From the NCBI GenBank assembly GCA_945965395.1, contig CAMFND010000093.1, forward strand, positions 1-64,000: a stretch of DNA of 64,000 nucleotides. The letters run 5' to 3'. This document shows, in pieces, positions 8,948-44,384 of the stretch. Position numbers and translations under genes: made by a program. This DNA is from an uncultured Bacteroides sp. Lineage in GTDB: Bacteria; Bacteroidota; Bacteroidia; Bacteroidales; Bacteroidaceae. The stretch's first letter is position 1, and every line of letters starts with the position of its first letter. Under the pieces are notes generated by a model. It did not search any database. It worked only from the letters and a program-made list of their open reading frames with translations, and was not told the origin of the DNA.

Positions 8948-9021
8948 AATAACTAACTGATAATTTGAAGATTATACCTATATTTTCAAAATATTCCAAA
9001 GGAGTCCTGACGAACAGAAAA

Positions 9022-9147
9022 AAACGCAAGTGCGTTTCCACAAAAACGTACTTGCGCTTTAAGTAAAACGCCTAAGCGTTTTGATCAAAACGTCCTTGCG
9101 TTTCGGATAAAACGTACTTACGTTTTCTTCCAAACGCAAAGGCGTTT
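9022..9147. repeat. Six-unit palindrome array, AAACG/CGTTT arms, exact 22-bp pitch
   Basis: Six imperfect palindromes follow one another. Each contains CG-N6-CG inside A and T runs, for example AAACGCAAGTGCGTTT, AAAACGCCTAAGCGTTTT and AAAACGTACTTACGTTTT. Their symmetry centres fall at 9029.5, 9051.5, 9073.5, 9095.5, 9117.5 and 9139.5, exactly 22 bp apart. Arms are conserved while the central six bases vary. The array begins 8 bases after the ABC-F stop codon; read on the minus strand the last unit (9022-9037) is followed by a T run, so that unit can end transcription. The rest of the 8948-9155 gap is AT-rich leader of the acyltransferase gene. Confidence 0.9.
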
Positions 9148-9155
9148 TTTGAGTC

Positions 9156-10784
<1,629 letters not shown>

Positions 10785-21085: not shown

Positions 21086-21107
21086 GCAACAGCTTTTCAG
21101 ATACAAG

Positions 21108-21150
21108 AAAGGACTGTCTCCCCTACAAGTGGAGTCAGTCCTTTCTGCAT
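21108..21150 (+). terminator. Terminator of the grpE-dnaJ operon
   Basis: Arms at 21108-21121 and 21131-21144 (AAAGGACTG with CAGTCCTTT at the ends) pair with one mismatch and a nine-base loop, then a pyrimidine-rich stretch. The AGGACT/AGTCCT arms recall the divergent unit of the array near 44.25 kb, in reverse order. Confidence 0.75.
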
Positions 21151-21200
21151 TTAAACACGACTCCTGCAAGTCTCCTATTTCGGCCGAAAGCCTTTTTCCC

Positions 21201-21286
21201 AGTACTTCCGAAGAAGTACTCCAGTACTGCATAGGGAGTACTCCAGTACTTTCGTGGAAGTACTACAGTACTCCTTAAGAAGTACT
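21201..21286. repeat. Four-unit AGTACT palindrome array, exact 22-bp pitch
   Basis: Four 20-bp units of the form AGTACT-N8-AGTACT occupy 21201-21220, 21223-21242, 21245-21264 and 21267-21286, each separated by two bases, so the pitch is exactly 22 bp. The first unit, AGTACTTCCGAAGAAGTACT, has 8-bp perfect arms; the third is AGTACTTTCGTGGAAGTACT. The array lies between the dnaJ terminator and the promoter of the next gene. A separate palindrome, TTTCGGCCGAAA (21178-21189), is just upstream but out of phase. Confidence 0.93.
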
Positions 21287-44241: not shown

Positions 44242-44327
44242 AGTCCTCCCTTGTCAGGACTGGAGTACTCCCCCGGAAGTACTGGAGTACTGCCAAGGAA
44301 GTACTAGAGTACTTTCGAGGAAGTACT
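44242..44327. repeat. Four-unit palindrome array (three AGTACT units plus one divergent unit), exact 22-bp pitch
   Basis: Three AGTACT-N8-AGTACT units lie at 44264-44283, 44286-44305 and 44308-44327 with two-base spacers. A fourth unit in phase at 44242-44261 has arms AGTCCT and AGGACT, so both arms changed in a matching way and pairing is kept. Symmetry centres are 44251.5, 44273.5, 44295.5 and 44317.5. The unit AGTACTTTCGAGGAAGTACT differs from one in the 21.2-kb array at a single position. The array lies between divergent genes, in the predicted rlmN leader. Confidence 0.93.
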
Positions 44328-44384
44328 GAGACATTCCCGGTTCCTTAAACGAAAGCACTGCGCATATTCCACATATTTAGCGTA

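Follow-up and report, generated by a model that had tools for sequence, protein, structure and literature searches.

An array of six short palindromes behind an ABC-F gene in the window analyzed here (the whole stretch of 64 000 nucleotides from the draft genome of an uncultured Bacteroides sp., hereafter the source genome) belongs to a family found throughout the genome and is not a one-off. Comparison of the arrays within and between genomes suggests a gene-end element of an undescribed kind, the spacing of which appears to be preserved more than its exact sequence. The preliminary description of this array was sound as an observation but underestimated the scope of the phenomenon, which extends to tens of arrays per genome and to several arm sequences.

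The arrays of the window

Direct reading and repeat finders show six AAAACG-N6-CGTTTT units at an exact pitch of 22 bp at positions 9021–9148, with unit starts at 9021, 9043, 9065, 9087, 9109 and 9131. The cores of the units (CAAGTG, TACTTG, CCTAAG, TCCTTG, TACTTA and CAAAGG) include no two alike, and unit 2 has a single arm change (CGCTTT). The six units, the 22-bp spacing and the six differing centers are as first described, whereas the extent given then, 9022–9147, is one base short on either side. The array lies 5 bp past the stop codon of a gene for an ABC-F family ATPase (9156–10775, minus strand) and is transcribed from the minus strand; the surrounding ORFs include, besides ABC-F, an acyltransferase-like membrane protein and others. 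The outer ends of the array carry A7 and T6, which exceed the A/T runs at the internal boundaries, and the same excess of the end runs is seen across arrays generally. The last unit in the direction of the ABC-F mRNA (9021–9038, minus strand), a hairpin followed by a T-run, is the strongest intrinsic-terminator-like site of the array, and the unit closest to the stop codon (9131–9150, plus strand) has T6 at its plus-strand end, which gives the array a T-run at each end, one per strand. The ABC-F protein is 100% identical to that of Phocaeicola plebeius DSM 17135, and the array is found in four relatives. Both B. mediterraneensis and P. plebeius DSM 17135 have a version with five units, and other copies are present at loci L020 and L032. 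Among the ABC-F orthologues without the array, 43 of 75 have an ordinary terminator at that place.

The window contains two more arrays with the 22-bp pitch, both of a class with AGTACT arms. The first (21199–21286), with four AGTACT-N8-AGTACT-N2 units, is located downstream of dnaJ, which also has an ordinary terminator ahead of the array (approximately 21107–21147, identified by eye). The second (44242–44328), again with four units, lies beside the 5′ end of rlmN; both arms of its first unit are altered (AGTCCT/AGGACT) with the symmetry retained. Tandem Repeats Finder reports 22-bp periods at 21199–21286 and 44259–44328, the latter array truly beginning at 44242. Exactly four units are present in 13 of the 14 AGTACT arrays sampled.

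Spread of the arrays across genomes

In the 3.72 Mb of the source draft genome, AGTACT-N8-AGTACT occurs 78 times and the reversed control pattern not once; the two-unit AAACG pattern at 22 bp, with one mismatch allowed, is found in ~200 places, and its control in none. The AAACG and AGTACT arrays of B. mediterraneensis number 39 in 1.6 Mb and are evenly spread along the chromosome. Within the same genus, the AAACG pattern is present in 30 of 61 genomes and the AGTACT pattern in 10 of 61. In the survey, which covers the Bacteroidaceae, with whole genomes sampled in part and part of the source-genome sample picked because it held arrays, AAACG arrays are found in 27 of 399 genomes, and TGGCA-N6-TGCCA-N6 arrays, with the same 22 bp, in 23 of 399, all in other genera. 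Array counts differ widely between species, the core vocabulary is species-specific, and the arrays studied consist of 3–7 units. A phage element is rejected given the near-absence of the arrays from viral contigs (for each pattern, only 2 matches among 2.9 million). One contig of the viral collection (L272, position 11554), which may be the edge of a prophage, has an array of 11 units at 22 bp in which several variants of the arms occur.

The inventory of arms is broader than these classes. A third class in the source genome and B. mediterraneensis consists of GAAACGTAYGTTTC blocks at a 22-bp pitch with ~8–10 free bases between them (positions 106583 and 63193 of the stitched B. mediterraneensis region, L141 and L139; source contig C18, position 86138, L104). 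The TGGCA arrays (e.g. L089, position 19359) have a 5+6+5+6 layout like that of the ABC-F array. Further arms (CACACG, ACGCGT and AAAAGA) appear in palindrome rows at L027 (10350), L052 (12402), L022 (13310), L067 (9749) and L088 (4347). Of the other arm types, those at L022, L027, L052 and L089 have a 22-bp pitch, and pitches of 23 bp (L067) and 33 bp (L088) occur once each. Many AAACG arrays of both species (contigs C47, C73 and C85 of the source genome; B. mediterraneensis) include a recurrent unit variant, CGYCAAAGAG, in which the arm on one side changes from CG to CT.

A constant pitch with free linkers

When AAACG units of the source genome and B. mediterraneensis are located by consensus and the distances between close neighbors are measured with no pitch assumed, 228 of 230 are 22 bp, one is 21 bp and one is 23 bp; in this and the other pooled statistics, orthologous arrays of the two species are partly counted twice. 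Neighboring AGTACT units are 22 bp apart in 43 of 43 cases. The AAACG class has a core of 6 bp and a spacer of 6 bp nearly without exception. A sequence-agnostic scan for palindrome rows in 120 loci, some of them fetched because they hold arrays, yields 50 rows at 22 bp; multiples of 11 aside, no pitch has more than 4 rows, and a first scan of 80 loci gave the same picture. Two further pitches stand out, 33 and 44 bp, each a multiple of half the 22-bp value. Shuffled sequence gives zero palindrome rows at 22 bp. The claim of a constant pitch with variable centers, which the preliminary description had staked on the spacing in related genomes and on the behavior of shuffled DNA, holds on both counts, since the 22-bp spacing is retained in the relatives and shuffles give no such rows. 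A helically phased operator array is defined by dyad sites separated by an integral number of helical turns, with linkers of free sequence, and the arrays have this organization.

About 15 arrays occupy equivalent gene positions in the source genome and in B. mediterraneensis and can be aligned. Among the ten best of these, the AAACG arrays have changed in 5.5% of arm, 9.1% of core, 31.7% of spacer and 19% of flank positions, and the AGTACT arrays in 2.1% of arm and 31% of N8 positions. Several gaps within orthologous arrays, including the ABC-F array compared with its B. mediterraneensis orthologue, correspond to whole units (22 or 44 bp), and a few others are alignment breaks in badly aligned parts. 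The spacer sequence is free and the gaps are whole units; therefore, it is the length of the sequence-free stretch that is kept.

Core identity is 0.63 within and 0.64 between arrays in the source genome, and 0.67 and 0.68, respectively, in B. mediterraneensis. Units are equally alike within and between arrays, so the arrays are not young local duplications; tandem duplication, a minisatellite and local slippage are rejected on these grounds, in agreement with the original impression that the ABC-F array is unlike a simple tandem duplication. Multi-unit blocks with identical spacers are common to distant arrays of the source genome (contig C58 near 32.4 and 60.1 kb; C73, position 37142, and C95, position 8285), one pair of such arrays being reverse complements, which suggests copying or recombination between arrays. 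Two AGTACT arrays (C58, position 15667, L109; C85, position 22196, L193) have ~68 bp of the right flank in common, the sole such AGTACT case sampled. In the AAACG arrays of both species, the orientation of the asymmetric AAG core is the same in adjoining units in 95 cases and different in 41, and it is random relative to genes.

Location at gene ends

With genes called on the draft genome by ORF and codon model rather than taken from annotation, 31 of 78 arrays fall in gaps between convergent genes, compared with 96 of 725 background gaps (odds ratio 4.3, p = 5e-8). Arrays are depleted between divergent genes, and co-directional pairs hold 36 of the 78; the AAACG arrays in the latter position follow the stop codon at a median distance of 49 nt and precede the next start by 164 nt. 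The genes beside arrays encode ABC-F, DnaJ, RlmN, sulfatases, an efflux protein, AraC-type regulators, a permease and radical SAM enzymes; among these protein families, there is no common theme and no obvious cognate regulator.

A hairpin followed by a T-run (dG below -6) is found inside the array in 95% of the convergent ends with AAACG arrays. A separate terminator outside the array, by the same threshold, is predicted at 24% of AAACG-array ends vs 47% of array-less ends (p = 0.0003) in a folding-based comparison in which the shorter search window beside arrays somewhat inflates the contrast and the AGTACT ends serve as the internal control. By this folding-based test, AGTACT arrays neither carry nor replace a terminator. 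Thus, termination cannot be the function common to all classes, and only the AAACG class has the close hairpins past a stop codon with a U-rich tail that are typical of hairpin-cluster terminators.

Phased DNA sites, RNA hairpins or both

The reading that we favor, at somewhat less than an even chance, is composite: the arrays would be gene-end boundary elements made of helically phased dyad sites, and the AAACG class would double as a bidirectional terminator. At a spacing of 22 bp, or two helical turns, all dyad sites would turn the same face in one direction, and a dimeric DNA-binding protein would most likely occupy the sites cooperatively on one face of the DNA. Once transcribed, an AAACG array would fold into several clustered short hairpins, with a U-run at either end, and might stop transcription coming from both directions. 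A phased row of putative protein sites would explain the two-turn pitch common to unrelated arm sequences, and the occurrence of such sequences at the same pitch in other genera supports phased dyad sites; a bidirectional terminator role of the AAACG class would explain the gene-end position together with a terminator function in one class only.

The main alternative, that the palindromes matter solely as RNA hairpins, either as weak, bidirectional intrinsic terminators in a cluster or as protectors of mRNA 3′ ends, is unlikely. Beyond the 3′-end position, the T-runs at the ends and the replacement of terminators, it draws on the folding of the arrays, which on either strand is far more stable than that of shuffles (z-scores of -5.4 to -7.5) because units pair with one another as well as internally, and on the mismatches in the arms, which on the mRNA strand are G-U rather than A-C in a ratio of 23:9 (p = 0.02; 13:4 by array, p = 0.049). 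The 3′ T-runs of the arrays are not significantly longer than the 5′ A-runs. Hairpin clusters that act as intrinsic terminators, with several short hairpins <15 nt apart just past stop codons, have been described (PMC8355165). The AAACG arrays resemble them in having short hairpins close together downstream of stop codons, but neither a fixed pitch nor a conserved arm has been described for these clusters (PMC8355165), and AGTACT arrays, at the same pitch, are not terminator-like. Moreover, an exact linker length is not required between hairpins in RNA, yet 99% of the distances are 22 with free linker sequence. Among 287 phased units, one arm is changed in 71 and both arms in 4–5; arm covariation is absent at four of five positions, and at the fifth, it comes from one compensatory unit. 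An early signal of arm covariation was largely a phase artefact that vanished at those four positions after phasing. One-sided changes with little covariation are how the half-sites of a dimer behave. The innermost Y-R pair, which would close the loop, is unconstrained in these units, only 3% of which have complementary bases at the two central positions. The choice between a dimer on one DNA face and RNA hairpins, initially left open, is tipped toward DNA by the rigid length of the free linkers. Nevertheless, the G-U excess on the sense strand points to RNA pairing too and counts against a pure DNA reading. Taken with the gene-end position and the replacement of terminators, this weak excess suggests that the AAACG class may have an RNA-level terminator role as well.

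Topological sites and dispersed repeats

The BIME-2 elements of E. coli, which bind gyrase, offer another parallel: arrays between convergent genes could bind gyrase or another topoisomerase and absorb supercoils. Such a role would fit the convergent enrichment, the gene-end position and the even chromosomal spread, but is improbable, given that arm sequences differing by lineage are difficult to reconcile with a single conserved enzyme and that nearly half of the arrays are between co-directional genes.

Still less probable is a selfish dispersed repeat that lacks a host function, spreads by copying or gene conversion and is tolerated at gene ends. The unit blocks common to distant arrays, the species-specific cores and the widely varying counts are compatible with this possibility, but the arms are conserved relative to flanks between species, unit likeness is the same within and between arrays, ordinary terminators are missing beside AAACG arrays, and the hallmarks of known mobile repeats are lacking. 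Specifically, no leader, tail, shared flanks or terminal repeats are detectable, the similarity between arrays ending at the edge (median extension 0, 90th percentile ≤8 nt), and the RAYT transposase (Y1_Tnp, PF01797), which was detected in E. coli and in four further controls, is absent from the source genome and from genomes G009, G020, G024, G043 and G057. REP/BIME elements with RAYT transposases are clusters of intergenic palindromes at gene 3′ ends with many copies per genome, and the arrays are all of these; however, apart from lacking RAYT in the array-rich genomes, for which reason the REP/RAYT assignment is rejected, they consist of 22-bp units at a rigid pitch, with the unit sequence varying inside each array. 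Chance or replication slippage is contradicted by the zero 22-bp rows in shuffles, the empty control patterns and the within-array similarity that equals the between-array one, and is extremely improbable despite exact recent unit duplications in one relative (G002, contig C1, 367809–367931).

Plasmid centromeres and iterons such as parC/ParR or omega-repressor arrays are short tandem series of protein-binding repeats in helical phase; they occur about once per replicon, next to the gene of their own protein. The arrays share the phased tandem layout, with the protein sites being putative, but number ~40 per 1.6 Mb, at gene ends, with no obvious candidate for a cognate protein among the neighboring genes. 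CRISPR consists of near-identical repeats with unique spacers of ~25–40 bp, and the arrays, with variable centers and 6-bp spacers, are indeed unlike it. The nearest described repeat found in the open-access literature is BrickBuilt, a minisatellite/MITE of Porphyromonas gingivalis with intergenic, multi-copy 23-nt tandem repeats and predicted stem-loops (PMC4596501). The resemblance to the arrays extends to the near-equal period, the intergenic location, the multiple copies, the predicted stem-loops and the occurrence in Bacteroidales (PMC4596501). BrickBuilt, however, has a leader and a tail with IS5-like terminal inverted repeats, reaches 22.8 repeats and is present in 19 copies in one species (PMC4596501), whereas the arrays consist of 3–7 dyad-symmetric units without such ends and share their pitch among genera with different sequences. 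A MITE is rejected given the lack of common flanks and terminal inverted repeats and the period of 22, not 23. A search of Rfam with the array gives sub-threshold matches only, none above the gathering score; the initial remark that no matching described element was known holds for the open-access literature and for Rfam at that score.

Implications

A broader possibility, more doubtful than the composite reading, is that the arrays belong to a previously undescribed gene-boundary system of the Bacteroidaceae, in which the 22-bp pitch is fixed across genera and the recognized sequence is swapped by lineage, each version with a co-evolving protein, to mark and insulate gene ends. If so, many gene ends in array-rich gut Bacteroidaceae would be marked by a phased DNA element that is invisible to annotation pipelines and that would replace ordinary terminators at part of the marked ends. 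Conservation of the pitch across genera with different sequences would be a rare direct indication that selection acts on the helical geometry of DNA. The arrays would also provide a testable handle on the ending of transcription and the insulation of neighboring genes, and could be used directly as a part in genetic tools for these bacteria.
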